DNA of 64,000 nucleotides, from assembly GCF_029502005.1 (NCBI RefSeq), contig NZ_JAMQOT010000006.1, positions 124,001-188,000 on the forward strand, written 5' to 3'. Under the pieces are notes generated by a model, which made no database searches, had not been told where the DNA came from, and saw nothing but the letters and a program-made list of their open reading frames with translations. Numbering within the stretch: position 1 is the first letter of the stretch; each line of letters begins with the position of its first letter. A program made the position numbers and the translations under genes. Below are positions 9,440 through 42,775 of the stretch, piece by piece. Source of the stretch: Natrinema salsiterrestre. GTDB lineage: Archaea; Halobacteriota; Halobacteria; Halobacteriales; Natrialbaceae.

Positions 9440-9522
9440 AATCGGTTCCCGAAATTCGACACCGCACGGAAACGCTATTTTTCGAACGGACGACGATCGT
9501 TGAGTCCTACCGATACCTCCGA

Positions 9523-27773: not shown

Positions 27774-29252
27774 TCAGAGCTCCTCGAGCAGTGCGAGGAT
27801 GTCCGAGAAGCCGAAACGGCCGTTCCCGTCGAAGTCGAACTGCTCCGGGTTGTTCCGGATGCCGTCGGCGTCGCGGTGCTCGAAGAGGGCGTTGACGTCG
27901 CCGTGGGTCGTCTCGTTGTCACCGTTGACGTCCTCGTAGAGCCCGTCGTCGTCGAGATCCCGGGCCTCGTACTCGCCGACCGGGATCGTCTCGGGATCGG
28001 ACCCGCCGCTCTTCTCGTCGACGACCGCCGCGTACTCCTCGATGAGGTGGCCGGATTCGCTCGCGTAAAGCTGGAACCCGTCGTGGTCCTGCGTCTCCTC
28101 GAGGACGACCTGCCACGGGAGGACGGCGTTGCAATCGTACTCGTCGGCGACGTCGTACCACGACGCGAGCGTCTCGTTTTTCGTCTCGAGGTCGTGTGTG
28201 GTGTCGTCGACATTGAACTCGCCGAGGTAAGCGGGCTTGCCGATCTCCTCGTGGGCGTCGACGACGCGGTTTCGGATGTACTCGGCCCCCTCCTCGAGCG
28301 GGACGTTCCAGTGGTCGGGATACAGGTGGAACGAACAGGCGTCGATCGTCTCGATCGAGTGGTGAGCGACGTAGTCCTGCCCGTCCCAGTTGCCGTCCGG
28401 GTACTCGTCCTCCCAGGTGCCGTAGTAGTGGCCCTCCGATCCCGTCGAGACGAGGTGATTCCCGTCGAGCGCTTTGACGTACGCGGACATGTCTTCGAAC
28501 CAGGTCCCGAGAATCTCGCGGTGTTCGGGCGGCTCGAGGGAGTCCATGTCCGCGGGCACGTCGTCCTGCTCGAGGCGCGGTTCGTTGGCCAGTTCCCACA
28601 GCATAATCGTCGGATCCTCGCGCCACTCGATCCCGCTGATCGAGTTCTCCCGCGTGAGGATGGTTTCGACGTGGGTACGATACATCTCTCGGGTTTCGTC
28701 CATCGTGTAGAACTCGTAGCGCGACTCGCCACCGGCCCACTCGGCGTACTGGAGCATGCCGCCCTCGTGGTCCCAGTTATCCACGAGCGTCGCGATGAGC
28801 CTGATGCCGCGCTCCCTGGCCGCCTCGATCAGGTAATCGAGGTTCTGGAGGGCCTCCTCGTTGTACTCGCCGGGTTCGGGCTGGAGTGCGAGGGGGCCGT
28901 CTTTGCCTTCGCCGTGGGCCCAGAATCGGACGAGATCGATCCCCAGCTCCCGGTAGAGATCCAAGACGTCGTCGATGCGTTGCCTGGTTCCCTCGTACTC
29001 GTGGGTGATCCAGAAGTTGTTCGCCCCGTTGAAATAGACCGGTTCGCCGCCGGCGACGAACTCGGTTCCGTCGGTCTCGACGAACGCGAGGTCATCGGGG
29101 TCGGTCGTCGGCTCCGCGGCCGCCGCTGCGGTGCCGACACCCGTCGAGGCGATCGCCGCACCGGCGCCGATCACTTTGACGACGCGGCGACGGGTGTGCT
29201 GTGCTGTTCGATCAGTCGTGCGACCGTCCGCAATCGGTTCGTTCCTGGTCAT
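27774..29252 (-). CDS. Exported GH5 beta-mannanase-like enzyme with dockerin
   Basis: 492 residues. A Tat signal (TRRRVVKVIGAGAAIAS, residues 20-36) precedes a GH5 (beta/alpha)8 barrel at about residues 54-415. The proton donor is Glu224 in WELANEPR and the nucleophile is Glu345 in AYLGEFNV. The opening (GTEFVAGGEPVYFNGANNFW) resembles GH5_7 mannanases. The C-terminus (425-492) is a dockerin: calcium loops DVNGDNETTHGD (441-452) and DFDGNGRFGFSD (473-484). It probably cuts mannan outside the cell and docks onto the scaffoldin encoded at 38330-40843. The substrate is an inference from sequence resemblance. Confidence 0.88.
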   Translation of the reverse strand: MTRNEPIADGRTTDRTAQHTRRRVVKVIGAGAAIASTGVGTAAAAAEPTTDPDDLAFVETDGTEFVAGGEPVYFNGANNFWITHEYEGTRQRIDDVLDLYRELGIDLVRFWAHGEGKDGPLALQPEPGEYNEEALQNLDYLIEAARERGIRLIATLVDNWDHEGGMLQYAEWAGGESRYEFYTMDETREMYRTHVETILTRENSISGIEWREDPTIMLWELANEPRLEQDDVPADMDSLEPPEHREILGTWFEDMSAYVKALDGNHLVSTGSEGHYYGTWEDEYPDGNWDGQDYVAHHSIETIDACSFHLYPDHWNVPLEEGAEYIRNRVVDAHEEIGKPAYLGEFNVDDTTHDLETKNETLASWYDVADEYDCNAVLPWQVVLEETQDHDGFQLYASESGHLIEEYAAVVDEKSGGSDPETIPVGEYEARDLDDDGLYEDVNGDNETTHGDVNALFEHRDADGIRNNPEQFDFDGNGRFGFSDILALLEEL

Positions 29253-29394
29253 GTGTATCGGGATTCGTCTCCACAGGATGCTCGCTGTGGATCGCCGGCC
29301 AGACGCACGCGTGCAGAGCGATCGGCCGGTGGTCGACGTTCGAAGCCGGTACCGGCGATTCCGTCTCGGCTCCCGTTCTCGGTCCGACTACACT

Positions 29395-29460
29395 CGCTCT
29401 ACTCCATATTTGTACAAGTATTTTTACTAGGAAATAATTTGTTTTCCATAGCCACATGTG
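29395..29460 (-). promoter_or_regulatory. AT-rich promoter block upstream of the mannanase-like gene
   Basis: An AT-rich block in otherwise GC-rich DNA. On the minus strand it reads GGAAAACAAATTATTTCC (29430-29447), followed by further AT-rich sequence. A CACATGTG palindrome lies at 29453-29460. Similar blocks precede three other genes of the cluster. Confidence 0.45.
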
Positions 29461-29486
29461 ATTCTTCTGTCTACTCGAGATTCGGC

Positions 29487-30989
29487 TCAGAGTTCCTCGA
29501 GCAACGCGAGGATGTCCGAGAAGCCGAAGCGGCCGTTCCCGTCGAAGTCGAACTGCTCCGGGTTGTTCTGGACGCCGTCGGCGTCGCGGTGCTCGAAGAG
29601 GGTGTTGACGTCGCCGTGGGTCGTCTCGTTGTCACCGTTGACGTCCTCGTAGAGCCCGTCGCCGTCCCGGTCGTAGGCCCTGTGTTCCCCGAGATCGATC
29701 CAGTCGGAGTCGTCGCCGACGAACGTGTCGTCTTTCGTGTCCTCGAGCCACTCCCGGACGAACCAGCCCATCTGTTCGGTGTTGTCTTTCAGTTCCCACG
29801 GTTCGGCGGCCCCCTCGCCGGGCGAGTCGAAGAAGGTCGGAGCCCACGTGTCGTCGAAACACCAGGCGAGCCAGCCCATGTTCTCGTAGGATTCCATCCA
29901 CTCGCGAACGGGTTCTCCCCAGTCGCTCGTCGTGCCGGAGTCGACGTTTTCTTCGAATTCCTCGGCGGGATCCCACCCGAATTCGGTGACGACCACTGGG
30001 ACGTCATCGGCCGGCGCACCGTACTCCGGATCGAACGGGCCGACCTCCTCGGTGTCGCCTTCCGACCCCCGTTCGACCGTCTCGTAGGGGAGTCCGTTGG
30101 CCGGATAGATGTGGGCGGCGTAGATCAGGTTCTCGCCCTCGAAGGGATACTCGGCGGCGAACCTGGTCCGAGAGGTCCAGTCGGGCGAGCCGATGACGAT
30201 CGGTGTCTCGGGGGCGTCGGTCCGAATCAGGTCGATCCACGACTGCGCGGTATCGCGCCAGAGCAGCCACTCGTCTTCCGCCGTCGTGACCGCTGGCCCG
30301 TGCTCCCCGTACGACGACCACGTGACTGGGAGCGTCGGTTCGTTGTACAGTTCGAAGAGGACGTTCTCGTCGTCGGCAAAGGCCGGGGCGACCGCGCTCC
30401 AGAACTCCGTCAACAGATCGTCGGTGTCGACGTGAGGATCGAAGCCGAGGCCGTCGAGGCTGTCCGCCCAGCCGTCTCCGACCATGCCCTCCCCGTGAGC
30501 CATCGCCTCCACGTACGGCCGAATGAGGTGGAAGTCGATCATCGCGTAGACGCCCCGGTCGGCCAGCAGGTCGACGGCCGGCCGCAGGAGTTCGTCGACG
30601 ACGTAGTCCAGTCCCCGCTCGTGGACCGCGTCCTCCCCGATCGGGAGCCTGACGACGTTCGGATGCCACCGCTCCCCGTCGGTCGCGTGCTCGAGTATCT
30701 CCCGCTGACTCTTCGGGAACCACGACGCGTCGATGTAATCCAGCGACGCCGGCGAGAGGCCGCGGAGTTTCACCCGCCGTCCATCCTCGGTGACGATCCA
30801 CTTGCCGTCGGTGCCCAGTCGCGGCGTCGGATCGTCGACGGCCGCTGCCGATCCCGACAGCCTACCGAGTGCGAGGCCGGCCGTGCCGACGCCGGCCGCT
30901 TTCACGACCGCCCGTCGCGTCGGTCGCAGGGATCCCCGGTCACCTCGTTCGGTTTCCCTCTTCTCACCAGTAGTGCTACGGTCTACCAT
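29487..30989 (-). CDS. Exported GH5 glycosidase (cellulase-like) with dockerin
   Basis: About 500 residues from the ATG at 30987-30989 (an in-frame GTG at 31007 is possible). Tat signal: RPTRRAVVKAAGVGTAGLAL. The GH5 barrel has AMIDFHLIRP, the proton donor Glu in LFELYNEPT and the nucleophile Glu in VVVTEFGWDP. The C-terminal dockerin keeps both calcium loops (DVNGDNETTHGD, DFDGNGRFGFSD) and ends ALLEEL like the neighbouring mannanase. It probably cleaves beta-1,4-glucan or a related polymer, but the subfamily cannot be fixed by eye. It has no carbohydrate-binding module of its own. Confidence 0.87.
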   Translation of the reverse strand: MVDRSTTGEKRETERGDRGSLRPTRRAVVKAAGVGTAGLALGRLSGSAAAVDDPTPRLGTDGKWIVTEDGRRVKLRGLSPASLDYIDASWFPKSQREILEHATDGERWHPNVVRLPIGEDAVHERGLDYVVDELLRPAVDLLADRGVYAMIDFHLIRPYVEAMAHGEGMVGDGWADSLDGLGFDPHVDTDDLLTEFWSAVAPAFADDENVLFELYNEPTLPVTWSSYGEHGPAVTTAEDEWLLWRDTAQSWIDLIRTDAPETPIVIGSPDWTSRTRFAAEYPFEGENLIYAAHIYPANGLPYETVERGSEGDTEEVGPFDPEYGAPADDVPVVVTEFGWDPAEEFEENVDSGTTSDWGEPVREWMESYENMGWLAWCFDDTWAPTFFDSPGEGAAEPWELKDNTEQMGWFVREWLEDTKDDTFVGDDSDWIDLGEHRAYDRDGDGLYEDVNGDNETTHGDVNTLFEHRDADGVQNNPEQFDFDGNGRFGFSDILALLEEL

Positions 30990-31000
30990 ATACAAAATCT

Positions 31001-31045
31001 CACACAAATCGCGATCAAATATATCTTACTCAATCGTGGAATAAA
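31001..31045 (-). promoter_or_regulatory. AT-rich promoter block of the GH5 gene starting at 30989
   Basis: TA-rich stretch with ATATATTTGATC-like sequence on the minus strand, directly upstream of the start. It lacks the ACAATA-type motif of the other blocks. Confidence 0.35.
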
Positions 31046-31147
31046 ATCCGGTCGATCGCAGATACCGGGTGGCAGCGACGCCGTCGGAGCGGTCGATCGT
31101 CGAGACCCACCGACGGGTCGTCCGCTATCGGTCCGAGCCGATCGACC

Positions 31148-32620
31148 CTATAATCGCTCGAGCAACTCGAGGATGTCCGAGAAGCCGAAGCGACCGTTCC
31201 CGTCGAAGTCGAACTTCTCTGGGTTGTTCTGGACGCCGTCGGCGTTCCGATTCTCGAACAGCGCGTTGACGTCGCCGTGGGTCGTCTCGTTGTCACCGTT
31301 GACGTCCTCGTACAGGCCGTCGCCGTCGATATCCCGGGCCTCGTACTCGCCGACCGAGATCGTCTCCGAACCGCCGCCCGTCTGGGGGAGGTCGTCGGTG
31401 CGTCGCTCGGCGAGGAACGTCTGCCACCACTCGCCCTGATAGTCCTCGCCGCCGAGGAGGGTCCACTCGTCGGGCGCGTCGCCGTCGAACATGTACGGCT
31501 TCCAGGACCGGTCGAAGCACCAGATCTGGGGGTGGACGGTATCGTATTCGTCGAAGAACGACTCGAACGCCGCGCCGTCTTCGGACGTCGTGCCCGACAG
31601 CGGGCTTCCGGCGTCGCGCTGGTAGCCGAACTCCGTGAGGAAGACCGGGACCTCCTCCGACGGTTCGCCGAAGTAATCTCCGAGCGGTCGAAGCCCGTCG
31701 TGGCCGGCGTAGACGTGCCCCGAGTAGGCGAGGTTCTCGCCCTCGAACTCGTGGCGCGGTGCCCAGTAGGTGTACTGGCTCCACCGAGGCGAGCCGATGA
31801 TGACCACGTTGCGCTCGGCGTGGGATCGAATCGTGTCGACCCACGGCTGGGCGGTCTCGCGCCACTCGAGCCAGGCCTGCTCGGCGTCGTCTCCCCGAAT
31901 CCTGTAGTCTTCGCCCGGATCCTGCCCGGCGTAGGGGCCGATCGGCTCGTTGTACAGTTCATAGAGGACGTGGGACTCGTCGGCGAACTCGGGGGCGACG
32001 ACGTCCCAGAACATACGAACCTCCTCGTCGAGGGCCGGATCGGTGTACTCGAGGCTCGTATCGGCGTGACGGTGGTAGTCGACGATGCAGTAGACGCCGA
32101 TCTCCGCGCAGTGGTCGACGACCGGTCGGAGGTGGTGTTCGATGTAGGCCTCGAGTTGTTCCTGAGTAATCGTTCCCGGATCGACCTCGTTCTGGGGGTC
32201 GCCGCTCACGCTGCCGTCGGCCGGGTCGACGGTAACGATATCGCCGGTCTGGACCGGGATGCGGATGATCCGCGCGTGCCAGCTCCTGTCGGGGTCGGTC
32301 GCGTGATCGATCGTCTCGGAGAGCGGCCGCCGCCACGATCGCGCCGTGCGGGCGGGATCGATCACGTTGACGCCGCGAAGCACCACCTCGTTGCCGGCCG
32401 GGTCGCGGAGGACGTTCCCGTCGCGCTCGAGCCACGGCGTCTCGATGCCGCGATCAGTCGTATCGACGTCGGCACGGACGGGGTCGGCAAACGCGCCGGC
32501 GGCCACCCCGGTCGTGCCGACGCCGGTCATCGCGAGAAACGCCCGCCTGGAGTGATCCGTGGGAGTCGTGATTTCGTCGCTGTTCCGGTCTCGTCGTGTC
32601 TCGTGTTCGTTCGTGGTCAT
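31148..32620 (-). CDS. Exported GH5 glycosidase with dockerin
   Basis: 490 residues. Tat signal: HSRRAFLAMTGVGTTGVAAG (about residues 23-42). GH5 motifs: VVLRGVNVIDPART, YCIVDYHRH, proton donor in VLYELYNEPIGPYAG, IIGSPRWSQYTYW, and nucleophile in VFLTEFGYQRD. The dockerin at the C-terminus has loops DVNGDNETTHGD and DFDGNGRFGFSD. The gene starts 55 bases after the beta-helix gene at 32676-34748 with no AT-rich promoter between them, so the two are probably one transcript. The catalytic part is closest in wording to the GH5 at 40886-42775 (same YNEP.GPY and SPRWSQYTYWAP phrases), suggesting duplication. Confidence 0.88.
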   Translation of the reverse strand: MTTNEHETRRDRNSDEITTPTDHSRRAFLAMTGVGTTGVAAGAFADPVRADVDTTDRGIETPWLERDGNVLRDPAGNEVVLRGVNVIDPARTARSWRRPLSETIDHATDPDRSWHARIIRIPVQTGDIVTVDPADGSVSGDPQNEVDPGTITQEQLEAYIEHHLRPVVDHCAEIGVYCIVDYHRHADTSLEYTDPALDEEVRMFWDVVAPEFADESHVLYELYNEPIGPYAGQDPGEDYRIRGDDAEQAWLEWRETAQPWVDTIRSHAERNVVIIGSPRWSQYTYWAPRHEFEGENLAYSGHVYAGHDGLRPLGDYFGEPSEEVPVFLTEFGYQRDAGSPLSGTTSEDGAAFESFFDEYDTVHPQIWCFDRSWKPYMFDGDAPDEWTLLGGEDYQGEWWQTFLAERRTDDLPQTGGGSETISVGEYEARDIDGDGLYEDVNGDNETTHGDVNALFENRNADGVQNNPEKFDFDGNGRFGFSDILELLERL

Positions 32621-32675
32621 GGTCTCTCGTTCGATGTGATCGCCGTCTCAGTCGCTCGTCGTCGCTCGTTCGCCG

Positions 32676-34748
32676 TCATATTCGTTCCAGCAGTTCGAGG
32701 ACGTCCGAGAAGCCGACTCGCCCGTTGCCGTCGAAGTCGAACTTCTCGGGGTTGTTCTGAACCCCGTCGGACTCGAGGTGCCGGAACAGGGCGTTGACGT
32801 CACCGTGGGACGTCTCCCCGTCGCCGGTAACGTCCTCGTAGAGCCCGTCGTCGTCGATGTCCCGGGCTTCGTACTCGCCGACCGAGATCCGGTTGCTGGG
32901 AGTCTCGTCCACAGCTGAAATCGTCCAGCGCTGATTGGCGCCTCCCACCCAGGGCCACTGCACGATCGGTGCGCCCGGGTCGGTAGACCGCTCGAAAACG
33001 TCGAGTACCTGATCGCTATGGACGGCCGCGATGACGAGACCGCCGTCGCCGTCCTCGGCTTTGCCGACCAGAAAGCGCTGGTTGTCACGACCTGTCCACT
33101 CCCACTGGATGACGTCCGTCCCGTTCTCGTCCGACGCCTCGAGGACGTCCAGTGCGGAGCCGCTGTGTTCGTTCTCGATCCGGTGGACACCGTCGCCGAG
33201 GTGCTCGAACCGCCAGTACTGATCCGGATCGCCGCTGGCGGGCCGCTGGACGACGCGGGCACCGTCCTCGGCGGAGCCGTCCTCGATCGACACCACCTGT
33301 CCGCTGTGACGGCTCTCGATTCGGTACCGCCCGTCCAGTTCGACCGGCTCGAGCGGCGGCAGCTCCGGCTCCGAATCCGGTGGCTCCTCGCCTGTCAGGA
33401 CGTTGCCTTCGACGGTCGTACTCGAGGCGAAGACCTCGAGGTCGGCGACGGTCCCGGCGTTCCGGAGGTCGTTATCGATGATGGCGTTCTCCCCCGTTCC
33501 CGGGCCGGTCTCGTAGATCCCGTACCGCTGTCGTGGCTCCGACCGATCGTCGACCACGCGGAGGTTCCGTACCGTCACGTTCGTCGCGGGCTCGTGGGTA
33601 TCGTCGTCTCGGGAGTCGATCCGGACGGCCTCGTTGTCGTTGTTTCGCACCCTCCCGCCGTTGATCTCGAAATCCTGGCAGTCCTGGACGAGAATCCCGT
33701 GGGACCCCGTCCCCTCGATGTCGACGCGATCGATCGCGACCCCGCGGCTGCCCGAGACGCCGAACACGCCCCGCGCGCCGCCGCGGACGACGACCTCGTT
33801 GACGCTGATCTCCGGTCCCGCGCCGTTCGCGACACGGAACCCGGCGTACCCGCCGCCGACGTCGGGATTCGTCGCGTCGACCCGATCGACGGTCGCGTTC
33901 GACGTGTCGTTCAATAGCAGGCCACAGCCGCCCGTATCGGCGGTCTCGACCGTTCCGACCTCGAGGTCGTCGACGCCGTAGGTCTCGACGGCGTGGTGTT
34001 CCGATCCCTCGACGACCGCCGACTCGAGCGTGACGTTCCGGGACCGACCGCCGTCGGCGTCGTCGATCCGAACGCCGAGACCGACGTCTTCGGTTTCGTG
34101 GAGCGATAGCTCGAGGTCGCCGAGGCGGACGTCGGTACAGCTCTGGATCCACACGCCGTATCGGGGGTTGCCCGCGATGGAGAGCCGTGGAATCTCGATC
34201 GATTCGACGCTCTGTGCGCGGATCGGCACGACGAGGTCCTCGCCGGTGTCCTCGACGGTGAGCGTCCCGCGAACGTCGAGGACGGTGTAGCTCGGGAGGT
34301 CGACGGCCGCGACGTCGCCGTCCCACTCGTGGGGGCCGATCGTCCCCGAGTCGTGAACGACGACGGTCTCCTTCGTCGTCCGGCCACGCGTGAGGCTGTC
34401 GACGGCCGCCTGGATCGCCACGAGCGTGTCGGTGCCGCGATAGACCGTCTCGCCGCCGTTCCTCGCGTGCCAGGTGTCGCCGTCCCTCCGAACGTCGGCG
34501 TCGGACCCGGAGTCCGCCGCGACGCTCTGTGAGGTGACCCCCGCGACGAAACTGGTCCCCAGGGCAGCCAGCGCTCGCCGGCGCGTCAGCCCCCGGCGAG
34601 CGTCGACGGTACTACCGGTATCCGTTCTCGCTGGTGTCGAATCCGCTTTGCGCCCTCGCGCTCGAGTATCCGACCGCCTGGTCAGTGCCGCTCCTGTTCC
34701 CCCTGTCGTCGACTCGTCGCTCGAGTCAGTCGATGACTCCCCATTCAT
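32676..34748 (-). CDS. Exported beta-helix / ricin-lectin protein with dockerin
   Basis: 690 residues. The Tat signal is LTRRRALAALGTSFVAG (about 54-70). A right-handed beta-helix covers about residues 100-460, with short repeated turns (VRLGDLELS, VTLESAVVEG, VAIDRVDIEG, FEINGGRVRNN), as in pectate lyases, epimerases and polysaccharide lyases. A ricin-B/CBM13-type lectin follows (SRHSGQVVSIEDGS..., NEHSGSALDVLEAS..., AVHSDQVLDVFERS...), then a dockerin with loops DVTGDGETSHGD and DFDGNGRVGFSD, the most divergent of the six. Catalytic residues cannot be named, so it may be a lyase, an epimerase or only a binding protein. It probably shares a transcript with the GH5 gene downstream. Confidence 0.83.
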   Translation of the reverse strand: MNGESSTDSSDESTTGGTGAALTRRSDTRARGRKADSTPARTDTGSTVDARRGLTRRRALAALGTSFVAGVTSQSVAADSGSDADVRRDGDTWHARNGGETVYRGTDTLVAIQAAVDSLTRGRTTKETVVVHDSGTIGPHEWDGDVAAVDLPSYTVLDVRGTLTVEDTGEDLVVPIRAQSVESIEIPRLSIAGNPRYGVWIQSCTDVRLGDLELSLHETEDVGLGVRIDDADGGRSRNVTLESAVVEGSEHHAVETYGVDDLEVGTVETADTGGCGLLLNDTSNATVDRVDATNPDVGGGYAGFRVANGAGPEISVNEVVVRGGARGVFGVSGSRGVAIDRVDIEGTGSHGILVQDCQDFEINGGRVRNNDNEAVRIDSRDDDTHEPATNVTVRNLRVVDDRSEPRQRYGIYETGPGTGENAIIDNDLRNAGTVADLEVFASSTTVEGNVLTGEEPPDSEPELPPLEPVELDGRYRIESRHSGQVVSIEDGSAEDGARVVQRPASGDPDQYWRFEHLGDGVHRIENEHSGSALDVLEASDENGTDVIQWEWTGRDNQRFLVGKAEDGDGGLVIAAVHSDQVLDVFERSTDPGAPIVQWPWVGGANQRWTISAVDETPSNRISVGEYEARDIDDDGLYEDVTGDGETSHGDVNALFRHLESDGVQNNPEKFDFDGNGRVGFSDVLELLERI

Positions 34749-34774
34749 GATTTCTCGGAGACCGCATACTGCGG

Positions 34775-34850
34775 TGCTGTGACCATAGAGTTAGACATAA
34801 ACTAATAAAATTTTGTATTGTTTTCCCTAATTTATACTCAGTAGCGCTTC
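34775..34850 (-). promoter_or_regulatory. AT-rich promoter block of the beta-helix gene
   Basis: AT-rich sequence 27-100 bases upstream of the start. The minus strand contains GGAAAACAATACAAAATTTT (34807-34826), sharing GGAAAACAA with the block upstream of the mannanase-like gene. Confidence 0.45.
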
Positions 34851-34924
34851 TCGATCAGGAATCGTAGCGACGGGCCGTCGAGCGGCCGTCAGCGATTTCC
34901 GACTGGAAAGGCGCTGCGCTGTGA

Positions 34925-37003
34925 TTAGATCTTCTCGAGCAACTCGAGGATGTCCGAGAAGCCGAAGCGGCCGTTGCCGTCGAAATCGAACTTCTCGGGG
35001 TTGTTCCGGACGCCGTCGGCGTTCCGGTTCTGGAAGAGAGCGTTGACGTCCCCGTGGGTCGTCTCGTTGTCCCCGGTGACGTCCTCGTAGCGGCCGTCGT
35101 CGTCGAGATCCCGCGCCTCGTACTCGCCCACCGAGATCGTCTCGTTGCCGTCGCCGCCGTCGTCCCCGTCACCGATGGTCCGCGTGTCGAAGGGGACCGT
35201 GTCGTCTTTGTGCTCCTCGAGCATCTGCTTGATGTAGACGCCGCTGTCCTCGCCCCCGATCAGGTCCCACTCGCAGGGCAGCTCGTCGCAGCCGACCGGG
35301 ATGTCCTCGAAGGGCGTGTCGTAGAAGTTGTCGTTGACGAGGTCGAGTTCGCCCTCTTCCAGCGCGTTCGGATTGTCGAACATCTTCGGCAGCCAGCGGA
35401 CGTCGGCGCACCAGCCGACCCAGCTGATCCGGTCGTCCCCCTCGACCTGGTCGAGGAACGGGACGCCGTACTCGGGGAGCGTCCCCTGCCCGGTGGTCGT
35501 CCCGCGCAGCCAGTGGGAGACGTCCGCGTCGTTGATCCAGCCGAACTCGGTGATCGCGACGGGATGGTGGTCCATCGCGTTCTGCAGGCCCGCCGCCTCG
35601 TAGGCCTCCCAGCCGTAACACTCCTGCTCGTAGGGGTCGTCCTCCACCGGGAGATAGGGGCTCTCGAGGTCCTCGCCGGTCTCGGCCTCGACCGCGTCGG
35701 GGCTCTGGTAGTTCGTATCGTTGAACCAGTTGTTCATCTGGCTGACGTCGTGGCCCGCGTAGTTGTGCCAGGTGACGGCGATATTGTCGTAGCCCGCGTC
35801 GTTGAAGTTCCGCCAGTGAAGCGCCTGCACCGACTGACACCAGCCGGGGACGCCGACCAGCAGGACGCGATCGGACTGGTACTCCCTGATCTTCTCGATG
35901 ATCGGCCCCATGAACTCGTCGAGGAACGTGTCCCAGAGGGGCTTCTGCTTGAACGCCCCGCAGCCCTCGACGGGACCCCAGATCCCCGGCGCGGTCGGTT
36001 CGTTGTACGGCTCGAAGAGCACGTGGTCCATCTCGCCGTAGCGCTCGGCCACCACGTCCCAGAACATGAGGACTTCGTCGAGCAGCTCCTGATTGACCGT
36101 CCAGTTCTCGTACGCGTACGGCGTGCCCTCGAGGTTGCCCTCGCTAATTCCTTCGACGTAGTCGTCGCCGGGCGTTTCCTCGATGTATTTCTGGTCGACG
36201 TATCCCCACGATCCCGGCGCGTCCTCGCCGAACATCTCGTGGCTGTTGTACGCCCAGTAGTTCGTGTACTCGCTGTCGTAGGGCAGGTGGTTCTCGGCGT
36301 AGGCGGGTTCCTCGATGCCCGGCGGCTGTTCGTGCCAGTGGCGGTGGTAGTCGACGATGCAGTAGACCCCGCGCTCCTTGCAGCGCTCGACGATCGGGTC
36401 GTAGTAATTCTCGAGGTACTCCTCGAGTTCCTCCCGCGTGAACGCCTGTGGTTGTGCCGGGCGCTGCTTCCGGCGATCGTCGTCGACCGCCTGCGGCGAC
36501 TCGAGTTCGCCGAACTCGTACTCGGGTCCGGTGTGCCCCATCGGGTGGTGTGACCCGTCGTCCCTCGTCCCGATGTCCTGTGGCTGTGCGGGAACCCGGA
36601 TGACCCGCGGGTGCCAGCCCGCCTCGTTATTCGTGACCGTATCGACGAGCTGTGTCGGCGTCTTCCCGCGGAGGTTCCGCGTCCGGTGGAGTCGCTTCGG
36701 ATCGGGGATGCTGAGCCCCCGCATCTTGAACGTCTCGCCGTCCTCGTTGACGATCCGATTGTCGTCGCTGACCGTCAGGTTCTGGAACTCGTCGAGCCCG
36801 CCGGCCGCCGCGCTGCCGGCGAATCCCGCGCCCATCCCGAGACCGGCGACGCCCGCGGCGGCGGTCGTTCGCATCACGTTACGTCGAGTGAGGTTGATGG
36901 GCGACGTCGCGTCGTCCTCCGTCCGCTTCAGTACACTCCGTCGCGTGCTCTCGGTCGTCGGTTCATCCGTCTGCTGCGTATTGTCAGTCCGTTTCATTGT
37001 CAT
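34925..37003 (-). CDS. Large exported GH5 glycosidase with dockerin
   Basis: 692 residues. The Tat signal is LTRRNVMRTTAAAGVAGLGMG (about 39-58). The GH5 barrel is longer than in its neighbours, with insertions between strands. Motifs: YCIVDYHRHWHEQP, proton donor in VLFEPYNEPTAPGIWG, LLVGVPGWCQSVQAL, and nucleophile in VAITEFGWIND. Extra Cys residues (CGAFKQK, CYGWEAY, PVGCDELPCEWD) could form disulfides after export. The dockerin loops are DVTGDNETTHGD and DFDGNGRFGFSD. It is the enzyme placed just downstream of the anchor cohesin. A cellulase or mannanase role is plausible but not settled. Confidence 0.87.
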   Translation of the reverse strand: MTMKRTDNTQQTDEPTTESTRRSVLKRTEDDATSPINLTRRNVMRTTAAAGVAGLGMGAGFAGSAAAGGLDEFQNLTVSDDNRIVNEDGETFKMRGLSIPDPKRLHRTRNLRGKTPTQLVDTVTNNEAGWHPRVIRVPAQPQDIGTRDDGSHHPMGHTGPEYEFGELESPQAVDDDRRKQRPAQPQAFTREELEEYLENYYDPIVERCKERGVYCIVDYHRHWHEQPPGIEEPAYAENHLPYDSEYTNYWAYNSHEMFGEDAPGSWGYVDQKYIEETPGDDYVEGISEGNLEGTPYAYENWTVNQELLDEVLMFWDVVAERYGEMDHVLFEPYNEPTAPGIWGPVEGCGAFKQKPLWDTFLDEFMGPIIEKIREYQSDRVLLVGVPGWCQSVQALHWRNFNDAGYDNIAVTWHNYAGHDVSQMNNWFNDTNYQSPDAVEAETGEDLESPYLPVEDDPYEQECYGWEAYEAAGLQNAMDHHPVAITEFGWINDADVSHWLRGTTTGQGTLPEYGVPFLDQVEGDDRISWVGWCADVRWLPKMFDNPNALEEGELDLVNDNFYDTPFEDIPVGCDELPCEWDLIGGEDSGVYIKQMLEEHKDDTVPFDTRTIGDGDDGGDGNETISVGEYEARDLDDDGRYEDVTGDNETTHGDVNALFQNRNADGVRNNPEKFDFDGNGRFGFSDILELLEKI

Positions 37004-37437
37004 CTCGTCGCTCGGATCCGCGTGCGTCCGTCACGGGTCGCCCGCGATAGCTGCGAAGATCCACCCACAAGTCCCCGTTCTACCACATTAAAATTAACTA
37101 CAGAAGTAAAAGAAATTATTGTTACGCGCCTTGTTGTAACATTCCACACATGTGATCCGCGGCCGTTCTCCTCGAAGGGCAGCGCCGAGCCCGTACCCGC
37201 GATCTCACATCTCGACGACCGCGATCGCGTTCTAGAACGGCCTTCGGCCCGCGTCTGGACGACGATCTCGAGAGCGTCGGTCCGATGAGCGTCGCTGTAT
37301 TCGTCGGCCGCCCGTTCCTCGCCGGGCCGAACGGTGCCGACACCGATCGGTTCAGCGCCCCCACGCCCGCCCTCGCGGTGCCGATCGAACCGGCCGCCGG
37401 TTCGTACTCCCAGTGCAGCCGACGCCTCGGTCGAGTC
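37004..37437. other. Gap between the anchor-cohesin gene and a GH5 gene
   Basis: The left part holds an AT-rich promoter block. On the minus strand, AACAATAATTTC lies at 37112-37123 and the CACATGTG palindrome at 37147-37154. The GC-rich remainder (about 37160-37437) shows no gene or RNA that I can support. Confidence 0.45.
37085..37154 (-). promoter_or_regulatory. AT-rich promoter block with upstream palindrome
   Basis: The AT-rich core is at about 37085-37125, some 80-120 bases before the GH5 start at 37003. A CACATGTGAT sequence starts at 37147, the same ten bases as at 29453 upstream of the mannanase-like gene. Confidence 0.4.
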
Positions 37438-38154
37438 TCACTCCGACCGTCCGGACCGATCGCCACGTTTCCCGAGCGCGTACGCGATCCACCCTGCAGC
37501 GCCGATCACCGCGGCCGAGGGACCGAAGCCCGGAATACCGTCGTCGGACCCGGCAGTCGTCTCGGATCCACCGTCGGCCGGGTCGCCGTCTCCGACGGTG
37601 AGCGTCGCCGATTCGACCGACGATTCGACGACGGTACCGTCGCCGTCCTCGAGCCGGACGATCTCGATCTCGGCTGTGGTTTCACCGGCTTCCACCCCCT
37701 CGATCTCCACGTAACCGACATCGAGGTCGGTGGCACCGTCACCGATGGACTTTGCCGCGGCGAGACGCGCCGTCCCGTCTGCCGTCTCGACGTCCTGAAC
37801 CAGGGCGTCGGCGAACGCCTCCCCGAGCCCGGCGTCGACGACGCGAGCGACGGCCGTCTCGACGGTGACCTCGAGATCGAACCCCGAGAGTCCGTCGGGG
37901 GCCTTAGTCAGGCCGACATCGACGGTCGTTGTCCCGCCCGGGTCGATCGCCGCCTCCGCCGGCGTCACCGTTACCGTCGGTGCTTCACTCGTCTGGGCGG
38001 CCGGTCCGGCCTTCCCGGCGACCGGGCCGGCCGCTACGCCCGCACCGACGAGGCCGGCGGCCGCCAGGAACCCCCGCCGGCCGATCGCGTCGTCGGTCGG
38101 TGTCGCGCACTGACTCGCCCCTTCCACCTGTTCCGTTTCCGTCGTTTCGTACAT
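37438..38154 (-). CDS. Single-cohesin surface protein with PGF-CTERM-like anchor
   Basis: 238 residues. Tat signal: GRRGFLAAAGLVGAGVAAG (residues 25-43). One cohesin-like domain at about 59-188: TVTVTPAEAAIDPGGTTTVD, DGLSGFDLEVTV, VDAGLGEAFADALV, ATDLDVGYVEIEGV and a closing ATLTVGDG. A short Gly/Ser/Asp linker leads to IPGFG (207-211), a hydrophobic segment and a basic end (GKRGDRSGR). This matches the PGF-CTERM signal processed by archaeosortase, which attaches proteins to membrane lipid. The cohesin is very similar to the second cohesin of the scaffoldin. It likely holds dockerin-bearing enzymes on the cell surface. Confidence 0.85.
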   Translation of the reverse strand: MYETTETEQVEGASQCATPTDDAIGRRGFLAAAGLVGAGVAAGPVAGKAGPAAQTSEAPTVTVTPAEAAIDPGGTTTVDVGLTKAPDGLSGFDLEVTVETAVARVVDAGLGEAFADALVQDVETADGTARLAAAKSIGDGATDLDVGYVEIEGVEAGETTAEIEIVRLEDGDGTVVESSVESATLTVGDGDPADGGSETTAGSDDGIPGFGPSAAVIGAAGWIAYALGKRGDRSGRSE

Positions 38155-38329
38155 TGGTATACAGCTCCGTCAGAGCCACCGCCGCGTACCGCGGATCGTC
38201 GCTCGACGACCGGGCCGGCGGTGGCAACGGACGGCACTCGTTCGAATCGACTCGCTCCCGTCGTTCGTCTCGGCGTCTCTGTCTCCCGTCGAACCCCGCG
38301 TCGAAACGGCGGTCCGCCGGCGATCGGGA

Positions 38330-40843
38330 TTACGAGACCGTAATCTCGACCTCGTGGGTCGTCTGCCGGCCGCGCTGGTCCGTCACGGTGAGCGTCACCG
38401 TGTAGGTGCCAGCGGACCCGTAGGAGTGTCCGGCGTACCAGCCGCTCGCGGACGTTCCGTCGCCGAGGTCCCACTCGAGCCCGGTGATCCAGACGTCGTT
38501 GGGCGTCGTCTCCCGAACGCGGAAGTCGATGCGCTCGTCGGTCTCGACGTCCGTGGCGCTCGGGTTGATCTTCGCGAGGTGGTCGACCTCGAGGGGGATC
38601 TCGCCGTCGACCGGTTCCCAGGCGTACATCTCCTCGTATTTGGGCTTCTCGCCCCGGTTGGTCCACTGTGCTTCCCAGTCCTCGCCGTTCCAGTGGACGC
38701 GTTCGCCCTTCTGGTAGAGGGTGTCAGCGTCCCACTCGGGATACTCGCTGTCGCCGCCGTCTTCGTTGTCGCCGTCGTCTCCGCCCGCGGTCGTGGCGGA
38801 AACCGTCGCGGGATCGGTCTCCGTCCCCTCCTCACCGACCGCGCTGACGCCGATCTCGTAGGTCGTCTCGGACTCGAGGTCGGTGACTGTGGCGCTGGTC
38901 GAGCTCGTGGTCGTTTCCTCGGTGCCGTCGACGGAGACGACGTACTCGACGGCGTTCGGGTCGGAGTCCCACGCGACCTCGACCGACGTCTCGGTCTCGG
39001 CGACGACCTCGAGGCCCTCGGGCGTGCTCGGCGGCACGTGGGGCTCCGCAGTCGTGGCGGAGACCGTCGCGGGGTCGGTCTCCGTCCCTTCCTCGCCGAC
39101 CGCGCTGACGTTGATGTCGTAGGTGGTTCCCGACTCGAGATCGGGGACCGTAATGCTGGTCGAGCTCGTGGTGAGCGTCTCCTCCCCGCTGGCCCAGACG
39201 TCGTACTCGACGGCGTTCGGGTCGGAGTCCCACGCGACCTCGACCGACGTCTCGGTCTCGGCGACGACCTCGAGGCCCTCGGGCGTGCTCGGCGGCGTGT
39301 GGGCCTCCGCGGTCGTCGCGGTAACCGTCGCGGGGTCGGTCTCGGTATCCTCCCCGCCGATGGCGGTGACGCCGATCTGGTAGGTCGTGCCCGACTCGAG
39401 GTCGGTGACGGTCGCGCCGGTCGCGGTCGTGGTCGTGGTCGTTTCCCGCTCGCCGTCGACGTACACGGCGTACTCGTCGGCGTTCGGATCGGTCGCCCAC
39501 GCGACCTCGATCGAGGTCTCGGTCTCGTCGACCACTTCGAGGTCCTCGGGAACGCTCGGCGGCTTCTCGTCCGGTTCGCCGTCGCCGACGGTCAGCATCG
39601 CCTCCTCGAATTTCGGTTCGATGAGTTTCGCGCCGTCGTTACCGGGGAGCGTTTCCATCGGGGTCGTCCCCTCCGCGACGTCGACGACCGTCTCGCCGTC
39701 GGCGACGCCCTCGAGTTCGACGGTTGCGAGGTCGAGGTCGGTTGTTCCTTCGCTGATCCGTTTCCCCGCCGCTGCGACGGTCGCGAACCCGTCGGTCACG
39801 TCGATCTCGGGCGGGAACAGGGAATCGGCGAACGTCTCGCCGATCCCGGCGTCGACGATGATCGCGGCCTCGGCGTTGACGTCGATGTCGATCTCGAACC
39901 CGGACAGCCCGTTGGGGACCGCCGTCATGCCGATATCGACGGTCGTCGTCTGGCCCGGATCGATCTGCGCGTCGGCGAGATCGACGGTCACCGTGGGCGT
40001 CTCCGGCTCCGACCCCGCGACGGTCGTGGCCTGCACCGTCGCCATCCCGGAGGCGGTCTCGCCCTCACCGACGGCACTGACGCCGATATCGTAGGTCGTC
40101 TCGGCCTCGAGCCCCGTGATTGTCGCGCTGCTCGAGGTCGTCGTCGTCTCCCGCTCGCCGTCGACGGAGACCGCGTACTCGAGGGCGTCCGGCACCGGAC
40201 TCCACTCGACTTCGACCGAGGTCTCGCTCTCGTCGACGACCGCGAGATCCGCCGGCATATCGGGCACGCTGGGGTCGTCGCCGACCCTGAGCGTCGGCGT
40301 CTCGTAGTCCACCGCGACCGCTTCGTCCTCGGCGTCGGTCAGCAGGAAGTCCGACAGTTCGACGTCGGTCGTCCCGTCTTCCCGTGCCTCGAGGACGAAG
40401 GTGGCGAACTCGTACCCGCTCGTTCCGACGTCCATGACCCCGCCGTCCTGCCTGAACGCGGCGTAGTCCGCCCTGAACGAGTCGGTCGGTTCGTCGACGC
40501 TGTTTCGATCGTCCCAGTTCGACGGCCACTCGTCGCCGAGGGAGACCCCGACGATCTCCGCGACCGCGGAATCGACCGCGGCCTCGAGGCCCCAGCCCAT
40601 CACTCCCGTGGGTCCGTTCGAAATCGAGAACGTCACCGTCGTGGTCTCGCCGGCCTCGATCCGTTCGTCAGCGAGGTCGGCGGAAAGCGTGACGTGGTCG
40701 TCGGCCGCGACGGTCGACGTCCCGACCGCGATCGCGCCCGCACTGGCCCCGGCGGCCTGCATGAAGGTGCGTCGCGACGCGGAGGAGTCCGCCTGCTGAT
40801 CGGTGAGCTGTGCGTCGTCGTACGTGTCGTTGTCGTTCGTCAT
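38330..40843 (-). CDS. Cellulosome-type scaffoldin: 2 cohesins, 4 FN3, CBM5/12-like, PKD-like
   Basis: 837 residues with no catalytic domain. Order: Tat signal (SRRTFMQAAGASAGAIAVG, 23-41); cohesin-like domain 1 (48-189); FN3 (191-276); cohesin-like domain 2 (282-422); three FN3 (428-512, 516-600, 604-687); an acidic linker; a CBM5/12-like module (700-748: YPEWDADTLYQKGERVHWNG, then WEAQWTN and AWEPV); a PKD-like domain (755-837: WDLGDGTSASGWYAGHSY, YTVTLTVTD). Cohesins bind dockerins, and the CBM would bind cellulose or chitin. It has neither dockerin nor membrane anchor, so it is probably secreted free. It starts 42 bases after a GH5 gene and is likely co-transcribed with it. Confidence 0.88.
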   Translation of the reverse strand: MTNDNDTYDDAQLTDQQADSSASRRTFMQAAGASAGAIAVGTSTVAADDHVTLSADLADERIEAGETTTVTFSISNGPTGVMGWGLEAAVDSAVAEIVGVSLGDEWPSNWDDRNSVDEPTDSFRADYAAFRQDGGVMDVGTSGYEFATFVLEAREDGTTDVELSDFLLTDAEDEAVAVDYETPTLRVGDDPSVPDMPADLAVVDESETSVEVEWSPVPDALEYAVSVDGERETTTTSSSATITGLEAETTYDIGVSAVGEGETASGMATVQATTVAGSEPETPTVTVDLADAQIDPGQTTTVDIGMTAVPNGLSGFEIDIDVNAEAAIIVDAGIGETFADSLFPPEIDVTDGFATVAAAGKRISEGTTDLDLATVELEGVADGETVVDVAEGTTPMETLPGNDGAKLIEPKFEEAMLTVGDGEPDEKPPSVPEDLEVVDETETSIEVAWATDPNADEYAVYVDGERETTTTTTATGATVTDLESGTTYQIGVTAIGGEDTETDPATVTATTAEAHTPPSTPEGLEVVAETETSVEVAWDSDPNAVEYDVWASGEETLTTSSTSITVPDLESGTTYDINVSAVGEEGTETDPATVSATTAEPHVPPSTPEGLEVVAETETSVEVAWDSDPNAVEYVVSVDGTEETTTSSTSATVTDLESETTYEIGVSAVGEEGTETDPATVSATTAGGDDGDNEDGGDSEYPEWDADTLYQKGERVHWNGEDWEAQWTNRGEKPKYEEMYAWEPVDGEIPLEVDHLAKINPSATDVETDERIDFRVRETTPNDVWITGLEWDLGDGTSASGWYAGHSYGSAGTYTVTLTVTDQRGRQTTHEVEITVS
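38780..39575. repeat. Tandem FN3-coding repeats in the scaffoldin
   Basis: Three consecutive FN3 modules of about 264-270 bases. The last two are near-identical over long stretches: for example, GAGGCCCTCGGGCGTGCTCG occurs at about 39011 and again near 39281. This indicates recent duplication. Confidence 0.8.
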
Positions 40844-40885
40844 TGGATTTGTAGTGTCGTATTTACGGTGTGTCTTCGACTCTCG

Positions 40886-42775
40886 CTAGATCTCCTCGAG
40901 CAGCTCGAGGATATCCGAGAAGCCGAAGCGGCCGTTGCCGTCGAAGTCGAACTTCTCGGGGTTGTTCCGGACGCCGTCGGCGTTCCGATTCTCGAAGAGG
41001 GCGTTGACGTCCCCGTGGGTCGTCTCGTTGTCCCCGTTGACGTCCTCGTAGCGGCCGTCACCGTCGGGATCTCGAGCCTCGTACTCGCCGACCGGGACCG
41101 TCTCGTTGCCGTCGCCGCCGTCGTCGGGGTAGGGATCACCGGTGATGTCACCCGGACCGATGTGGAGGTCGTTCTCGCCGTTGTCGGCGTCCGGATACGG
41201 GTCGTCGCCGGGCGCGAAGTCGTCGTAGTCGTCGGCCATCTCCTGGTTCAGTTCGTGCCACCAGACGCCGGGCGTCTCGTCGTTCAGGTGATTCATCCAG
41301 TCGTCGGCGCCCTTCGCCCCGTCGTTCAGACCGGGGGTGCCGTGTTCGAACATATTCGGCTCGTAGGTGTGGTCGAAACACCACGCCAGCGGGTGGACGT
41401 CGTAGTTCGCGATGAACTCCTCGTACTCCCGGATGTACGGCTGACAGTCGCCGTCGTGCTTACCGCTACAGTCCATCCAGGGCGTGTCGACGTGCATCCC
41501 GCCGCCTTCGATCCAGCCGAACTCGCTGAAGAAGATCGGCACGTACTCGGAGGGCTGACCGAAGTACTTCGAGAGGGGGCGCAGCCCGTCCTGCGTGTAG
41601 ACGTGGGCCGTGTAGCACATGTTCTCGGCGTCGAACTCGTTGTGGGGGGCCCAGTAGGTGTACTGACTCCACCGCGGACTCCCGATCGTGATCAGCTGTC
41701 CGTCCGCGTTCTCCTCGACCGTGTCGACCCACGGCTGAGCGCGATCGACCCACAGGTCGTACCAGGCTTTCATGTCCTCGTGGGAAACGTCGTAATTGGA
41801 CGCGTCCCCATCGCCGGGGGCCTCCGCCGGCGCGGAGAGTTCGCCCGCCTGCCGCTGCGGGCCGCCCCAGTCGCCGCCGTAGGGCCCGGTCGGCTCGTTG
41901 TACACGTCGAAGATCACGTGATCGTCGCCCGCGTATCGGCTGGCGACGATCTCCCAGAACATGTGCAACTCCTCGTCGAGCGCGTTCGAGATCTCCGGCG
42001 GCTCGAGGTAGATATCGTCTTCCTCGAGGTCGTACGCCTCGAGGATGTTCTGCTCGTGGATCAGGTCCCAGATCTCGTCGACCTGGTCCTCGCCGTGCCA
42101 GAGCACGCCGCGCTCGCCACAGACCTCCGGATGGCGCCAGTCCTCGCCGCCGTCGCTCGAGCACTGCCAGACGTTGGGATCGACGCCGTGGTTCTTGTGG
42201 TCCTCCTGGTGGAAGACCGGGTAGTGGCGGTGGTAGTCGATCATCACGTAGGCGCCGCGCTGGGCACCGAGCTCGACGAGTTCGTCGAGGAAGGTCCGAC
42301 AGTACCACTTGACGTCGTCCCTGTCGAACTGTCCCGGCAGGGCCGGACCCCAGTCGTCGCCGTGGGGCATTTCGCTCGGTTTCGCGTTCTTCGTCCCGGC
42401 CGCGAGGAACGACGGCATTACCGGTACCCGGACGACGTTGGTGTACCATCCCTCGGCCTCGTTCGTCGCTAGCTCGAACGTCTCTGGCGCGGTCTGTCCC
42501 CGCCATGTTCGGCTCTGTTCGCCGGGATCTGCGATGTTCACGCCGCGCAGGCGGACTTCTTCACCGCTCGGGTCGACGATCTCGTTTCCGTCCCGTGCCA
42601 GCGGCGGGAGATCGATCTCTTGAGCCACTGCAGAGCTCGTGACGCTGCCGAGACCGCCGAGCGCGACCACGCTCGTTCCGGTCGCCTTCAGTATCGTTCG
42701 TCGCGACGTCGAGACGCCGCGGCCGCCCCTATTCGACTGAGCCGCCGAGTCCGTTTGATCCGTGTTTTTTGACAT
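40886..42775 (-). CDS. Exported GH5 glycosidase with dockerin, first gene of the cohesin operon
   Basis: 629 residues. Tat signal: TSRRTILKATGTSVVALGG (about 23-41). GH5 motifs: EVRLRGVNIADPGEQSRTW, YVMIDYHRHYPVF, proton donor in VIFDVYNEPTGPYGGDW, ITIGSPRWSQYTYWAP, and nucleophile in IFFSEFGWIEGG. The dockerin loops are DVNGDNETTHGD and DFDGNGRFGFSD. Its start is preceded by a strong AT-rich block, and the scaffoldin and then the anchor cohesin follow in the same direction, so enzyme and scaffold would be made together. It is probably a cellulase- or mannanase-like enzyme. Confidence 0.88.
   Translation of the reverse strand: MSKNTDQTDSAAQSNRGGRGVSTSRRTILKATGTSVVALGGLGSVTSSAVAQEIDLPPLARDGNEIVDPSGEEVRLRGVNIADPGEQSRTWRGQTAPETFELATNEAEGWYTNVVRVPVMPSFLAAGTKNAKPSEMPHGDDWGPALPGQFDRDDVKWYCRTFLDELVELGAQRGAYVMIDYHRHYPVFHQEDHKNHGVDPNVWQCSSDGGEDWRHPEVCGERGVLWHGEDQVDEIWDLIHEQNILEAYDLEEDDIYLEPPEISNALDEELHMFWEIVASRYAGDDHVIFDVYNEPTGPYGGDWGGPQRQAGELSAPAEAPGDGDASNYDVSHEDMKAWYDLWVDRAQPWVDTVEENADGQLITIGSPRWSQYTYWAPHNEFDAENMCYTAHVYTQDGLRPLSKYFGQPSEYVPIFFSEFGWIEGGGMHVDTPWMDCSGKHDGDCQPYIREYEEFIANYDVHPLAWCFDHTYEPNMFEHGTPGLNDGAKGADDWMNHLNDETPGVWWHELNQEMADDYDDFAPGDDPYPDADNGENDLHIGPGDITGDPYPDDGGDGNETVPVGEYEARDPDGDGRYEDVNGDNETTHGDVNALFENRNADGVRNNPEKFDFDGNGRFGFSDILELLEEI

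Follow-up and report, generated by a model that had tools for sequence, protein, structure and literature searches.

The cellulosome, a cellulose-digesting multi-enzyme complex, has been described from anaerobic bacteria (and fungi). OlpA of Clostridium thermocellum combines a single type-I cohesin with an SLH anchor, and ScaE of Ruminococcus flavefaciens a single cohesin with an LPXTG sortase signal. In this study, we describe a gene of the haloarchaeon Natrinema salsiterrestre whose product would work like these single-cohesin anchors. As in OlpA, one domain of the cohesin fold sits on a putatively anchored protein and could take enzyme dockerins directly at the surface; however, the SLH anchor of OlpA binds the bacterial cell wall, whereas here the host is an archaeon and the tail is of the PGF type, suited to an archaeal membrane. 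With ScaE it shares the single cohesin and a C-terminal sorting signal made of a motif, a hydrophobic stretch and a basic tail. The ScaE sortase leads to peptidoglycan, whereas here an archaeosortase is predicted to lead to a membrane lipid, and ScaE takes the dockerin of a scaffoldin, whereas the scaffoldin at this locus has none.

Among archaea, the cohesin-dockerin proteins of Archaeoglobus fulgidus and ANME (2xdh; PMC9012536, PMC5244752) share the archaeal cohesin fold but have no cellulase link, whereas the partners here are of GH5, GH10 and GH43 type. Citing earlier work, PMC9012536 describes archaea with dockerins and cohesins as devoid of large multi-cohesin scaffoldins, with the exception of its own ANME examples, which have up to five cohesins; haloarchaeal scaffoldins reach 10. 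In Haloferax volcanii, ArtA acts on both Tat and Sec substrates whose C-termini combine PGF, a hydrophobic segment and basic residues, and this processing is coupled to the attachment of a lipid (PMC7157517). These substrates, such as the S-layer glycoprotein and HVO_0405, resemble the present protein in their tripartite C-terminus and in the ArtA of their genome, and they include Tat substrates, which the present protein probably is as well, whereas the present tail scores below threshold, with a weaker helix, a longer charged end and a cohesin as payload. According to PMC10267330, which surveys the use of cellulose by halo(natrono)archaea and mentions neither dockerins nor cohesins, almost nothing is known of the way in which haloarchaea that grow on cellulose keep their enzymes at the cell.

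The gene lies in a stretch of 64,000 nucleotides (hereafter, the window), in a minus-strand cluster that spans positions 27774 to 42775 and comprises six dockerin-ended genes, a scaffoldin and the anchor gene. The features are listed below; G000 is the window genome, and other G numbers denote related genomes.

37438..38154, minus strand: P0001, putative single-cohesin anchor protein (238 aa); open reading frame, homologues in G069 (82%), G067 (60%), G007 and G008
38008..38082, minus: Tat-like signal with RRGFL, residues 25-49 (TIGR01409, conserved RR)
37591..37980, minus: cohesin domain, residues 59-188 (AlphaFold, Foldseek, hhalign, identity to P0002 cohesin 2)
37534..37590, minus: acidic Thr/Ser/Gly linker, residues 189-207 (sequence, low pLDDT)
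37441..37533, minus: PGF-CTERM-like tail, PGFG 208-211, hydrophobic 212-228, basic 229-238 (TIGR04126 below cut-off, PGFG conserved)
38330..40843, minus: P0002, scaffoldin with Tat-like signal, cohesin 1, fn3, cohesin 2, three fn3, CBM5/12-like and PKD domains (Pfam, cohesin HMM)
40280..40690, minus: scaffoldin cohesin 1, residues 52-188 (cohesin HMM)
39584..39997, minus: scaffoldin cohesin 2, residues 283-420, 50% identical to the anchor cohesin (cohesin HMM)
40886..42775, minus: GH5 enzyme with C-terminal dockerin at 40889-41071 (Cellulase 65.1 bits; Dockerin_1 24.1 bits, genome search)
34925..37003, minus: GH5 enzyme with C-terminal dockerin at 34928-35110 (Cellulase 65.8 bits; Dockerin_1 22.0 bits, just sub-threshold)
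32676..34748, minus: beta-helix and ricin-B lectin protein with C-terminal dockerin (Dockerin_1 28.0 bits, 31.9 in the genome search; RicinB_lectin_2 113.7 bits)
31148..32620, minus: GH5 enzyme with C-terminal dockerin (Cellulase 85 bits; Dockerin_1 26.2 bits)
29487..31007, minus: GH5 enzyme with C-terminal dockerin, start codon uncertain (Cellulase 99.9 bits; Dockerin_1 23.3 bits)
27774..29252, minus: GH5-like enzyme with C-terminal dockerin (Cellulase 41.1 bits; Dockerin_1 21.9 bits, just sub-threshold)

The anchor reading frame is intact from its ATG and encodes, in order, a Tat-like signal (IGRRGFLAAAGLVGAGVAAG), the cohesin, the acidic linker and the tail PGFG-PSAAVIGAAGWIAYALG-KRGDRSGRSE. 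The signal falls just below the TIGR01409 cut-off (15.2 against 16.7 bits), and its arginine pair is invariant in five relatives. The complete architecture is retained in G069 and G067; the G069 gene differs by 33 synonymous and 42 nonsynonymous codons. Of the tail codons, 25 are identical, eight differ synonymously and five nonsynonymously. The retained architecture and the codon patterns thus mark a real coding gene. A search of a plasmid collection found no relative.

Only 175 bases separate the anchor gene from that of the scaffoldin, in which fn3 and PKD domains score above the Pfam cut-off and CBM_5_12 below it (19.8 bits), and in which neither a dockerin nor a C-terminal anchor was seen. 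Five GH5 proteins and the beta-helix/ricin-lectin protein each end in a type I dockerin with two calcium-loop repeats (DVNGDNETTHGD and DFDGNGRFGFSD); four of the six exceed the PF00404 cut-off of 22.9 bits. The dockerins, including one on an unlinked GH43 protein, are 74-92% identical although the attached domains differ, so that different enzymes share a single type of dockerin. The window genome holds what defines a cellulosome gene set, a two-cohesin scaffoldin and seven dockerin proteins of one type. Elsewhere in the same genome, a second single-cohesin protein (L001:1207-2016, contig C20) is recognised by Pfam (33.8 bits) and ends in EPVPGFSGGVAILAVLLVAL, with no dockerin gene seen beside it, and an alkaline-phosphatase-like protein (L019:1423-2988, contig C26) has a half-dockerin-like calcium loop near its C-terminus.

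A search with Pfam PF00963 gave no match for P0001, P0002 or the 10- and 8-cohesin scaffoldins of relatives, and fold and profile comparison were therefore used instead. The AlphaFold model of the anchor domain, for which the input was limited to window sequences and those of the Halovivax sp. KZCA124 and Natronoglomus mannanivorans relatives, is a jelly-roll beta-sandwich of nine strands like that of solved cohesins, its pLDDT by block lying at about 83-96. In a Foldseek comparison of this model with the PDB, the 50 best matches listed all contain cohesins (best E 7.9e-10); the third is the A. fulgidus cohesin 2xdh, and the OlpA cohesin structure 3ul4 is also among the matches. By hhalign, the haloarchaeal domains align with Pfam-recognised archaeal cohesins at 97.3% over 124 columns, and for this reason we read the Pfam miss as a failure of model sensitivity. 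The possibility that the sandwich is merely another fn3-type domain was ruled out by the fn3 control, which gave 0.1-0.5%. A single-sequence search of the PDB with P0001 returned no match, and in a profile search the top match was weak (Scaffoldin C, 5lxv, E 0.042). Fold, profile comparison and the identity to cohesin 2 in the adjoining gene together establish the anchor domain as a cohesin, with dockerin binding as its predicted activity.

The tail is less clear-cut. Against TIGR04126 it scores 15.0 bits in the protein scan and 18.6 bits (E 0.012) in a six-frame genome search, where it ranks 11th, both below the curated cut-off of 24.5. A C-terminus with the PGF-hydrophobic-basic pattern occurs in one of the 247 six-frame open reading frames of the window, the anchor gene itself, and in seven of 302 predicted genes from 21 cohesin-centred regions, all seven encoding single-cohesin proteins; as the regions were picked for holding cohesins, this association is no genome-wide rate. 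These ranks and counts rule out a chance match. PGFG is invariant in five relatives, which also keep G..G and AY.L. The helix between PGF and the conserved basic end is weak: its KD hydrophobicity is 1.48, whereas the helices of eight confident PGF-CTERM proteins encoded in this genome have values of 1.98-2.71, and the estimated insertion energy of the anchor helix is an unfavourable +1.8, against -2.2 to +0.7. The G069 homologue has an arginine within the helix, and the anchor continues after it for 10 residues, including D and E, rather than three or four. The genome encodes ArtA (one TIGR04125 match, 317 bits), and a PF09721 search of it found no second archaeosortase or exosortase; ArtA is present in 14 of 14 related genomes tested, with or without the anchor gene, so that its presence is necessary but does not discriminate. 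A reading made earlier from the sequence only had proposed a single cohesin with a tail of PGFG, hydrophobic helix and basic residues, and had named an archaeosortase gene as one check and its absence as a refutation. The observation is confirmed: the cohesin, the PGFG, the hydrophobic stretch, the basic end and the archaeosortase are all there, with the reservations that the helix is weak and the tail scores below the PGF-CTERM cut-off.

The combination is not confined to this locus. A single-cohesin profile matches 244 of 391 genomes of the class at E<=1e-3 and, as counted from the table, about 103 at E<=1e-20. Among these matches are many single cohesins of Sec type that end in a clear PGF tail and adjoin a cohesin and dockerin protein of ~880 aa, the one such neighbour scanned having a PhoX domain (83.7 bits); most Sec and cohesin proteins beside genes of this PhoX-cohesin-dockerin type have PGF-type tails. 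In other families of the phylum, single cohesins of 171-190 aa with PGF tails adjoin cohesin-dockerin genes (L102, L104, L108), that of L104 scoring above the PGF-CTERM cut-off (25.5 bits). A single cohesin with a PGF tail next to a dockerin protein is thus a recurrent archaeal arrangement; in seven related clusters no anchor gene is adjacent. Scores below the threshold are usual among these single-cohesin proteins, the PhoX-linked ones, whose helices are much stronger, reaching 13.6 and 17.7 bits.

Some of these loci deserve a separate description. The common haloarchaeal pair (L065:6635-9487 and 9491-10219; L066, L067; L031-L049) consists of a PhoX-type phosphatase with cohesin and dockerin, next to a Sec-signal single cohesin with a PGF-CTERM-like tail; in L041, an SNase-domain protein takes the place of the phosphatase. 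The pair looks like a surface-docked nutrient-scavenging enzyme. Two proteins (L053:5556-8003 and L051:8492-10735) with an internal divergent cohesin and a C-terminal dockerin are possible adaptors between the scaffoldin and other parts. In G056 (L059), the 18 kb examined contain a two-cohesin scaffoldin but no dockerin gene.

The sub-threshold score and the weakly hydrophobic helix lead us to grade ArtA processing of the tail as likely, and no higher. The main alternative keeps the anchoring role but has the tail retained as a normal membrane helix at the C-terminus, unprocessed by ArtA. Besides the low score, it can point to a single-cohesin protein of G085 that has a strong plain C-terminal membrane helix and no PGF, and to the 258-aa Natronoglomus homologue, published as a membrane protein with two transmembrane helices (PMC10963439). 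We nevertheless regard it as unlikely: PGFG is held constant in the five relatives, whereas the helix varies and is too weak to make a good anchor by itself, and PGF-type tails recur on single-cohesin proteins of several lineages. Considering the score, the helix, the G069 arginine and the G085 protein together, attachment of the anchor to the membrane would be more certain than its processing by ArtA.

What the cohesin holds is suggested by a tree of 60 cohesins. The G000 and G069 anchor cohesins group with cohesin 2 of the scaffoldins from these two genomes (96/78). The G067 anchor cohesin joins its scaffoldin cohesins 2 and 3 (100/96), and in G007 and G008 the anchor cohesins likewise join the cohesins of their own scaffoldins (99/98), while the anchor tails and signals look homologous across all three groups. 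This pattern suggests that the anchor cohesin is kept matched to the local scaffoldin and shares its dockerin specificity, as it should if the two have their dockerin partners in common. Scaffoldin cohesin 1 of the window falls in a separate, long-branched clade apart from cohesin 2, suggesting a different partner or a lost function. The protein might instead be a structural or adhesion protein of the surface, whose resemblance to scaffoldins reflects origin only; archaea without a link to cellulose do have cohesins (PMC5244752, PMC9012536), but a gene placed within a run of enzymes that share one dockerin type, and a cohesin that tracks the local scaffoldin, make such a role improbable. Secretion as a free single-cohesin protein, with a tail neither processed nor inserted, might be read from the weak helix and the G069 arginine, but it is very improbable, given that the PGFG, hydrophobic and basic order is kept in five of five relatives and appears in none of roughly 290 other genes examined.

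We therefore return to an ArtA-processed, enzyme-capturing protein as the best explanation: the gene is probably that of the protein by which a haloarchaeal mini-cellulosome is anchored at the cell surface. Its product would be exported, probably by Tat in view of its RR motif, and its cohesin would project off the membrane on the acidic linker. ArtA, the sole archaeosortase, would remove the PGFG, hydrophobic and basic tail and attach the C-terminus thus created to a lipid of the membrane. Each anchor could then capture one of the dockerin-bearing proteins encoded alongside, GH5 enzymes or the lectin/beta-helix protein, while the two-cohesin, CBM5/12-like scaffoldin, with neither dockerin nor anchor, would bring the same enzymes together two at a time on the polysaccharide, dividing them between a cell-bound and a substrate-bound pool. 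Lacking a dockerin, the scaffoldin itself cannot dock onto the anchor, whose one cohesin would thus hold enzymes one at a time. This fits the placement of enzymes one by one that the sequence-only reading had proposed, and the cohesin-dockerin system it had assumed is borne out by the genuine set of dockerin enzymes around the gene; mostly right, it had overlooked the scaffoldin as part of a cellulosome and the wide recurrence of the arrangement in archaea.

Multi-cohesin scaffoldins are present in 12 further genomes examined in the family, in 11 of them with dockerin enzymes alongside. The largest described here are enzymatic, a GH5 catalytic domain being followed by 10 cohesins in Halovivax sp. 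KZCA124 (L070:3385-9675) and by eight in N. mannanivorans AArc-m2/3/4 (L071:4196-9502). The gene sizes of the Natronoglomus cluster fit the published table (PMC10963439), and its GH5/GH10 cluster MCU4972_2716-2735 is homologous to ours, with a homologous 258-aa anchor and the 8-cohesin scaffoldin. The published reading differs: the 1,755-aa scaffoldin is listed as a GH5/CBM6 endoglucanase and the anchor as an S-layer glycoprotein, dockerins are described as substrate-binding and cohesins were not recognised. A search of freely available papers found no publication on haloarchaeal cohesins, which is no proof of priority; that Pfam misses these cohesins would explain why haloarchaeal cellulosomes have gone unrecognised. 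On a balance that tips only slightly in its favour, we propose that haloarchaea own true cellulosomes, in which scaffoldins have as many as 10 cohesins, each cluster encodes 6 to 15 dockerin proteins and an archaeosortase attaches single-cohesin anchors to membrane lipid, and that the single cohesin with a PGF tail is a general archaeal surface-docking module, PhoX phosphatases included.

The present findings correct the annotation of the scaffoldin and the anchor in the published N. mannanivorans genome, and make it testable how cellulose-growing haloarchaea keep their enzymes at the cell. If the proposal is true, it would provide salt-stable cohesin-dockerin pairs for engineering, and it would extend enzyme docking to another domain of life and to another chemistry of membrane attachment, of the lipid type instead of SLH or LPXTG sortase.
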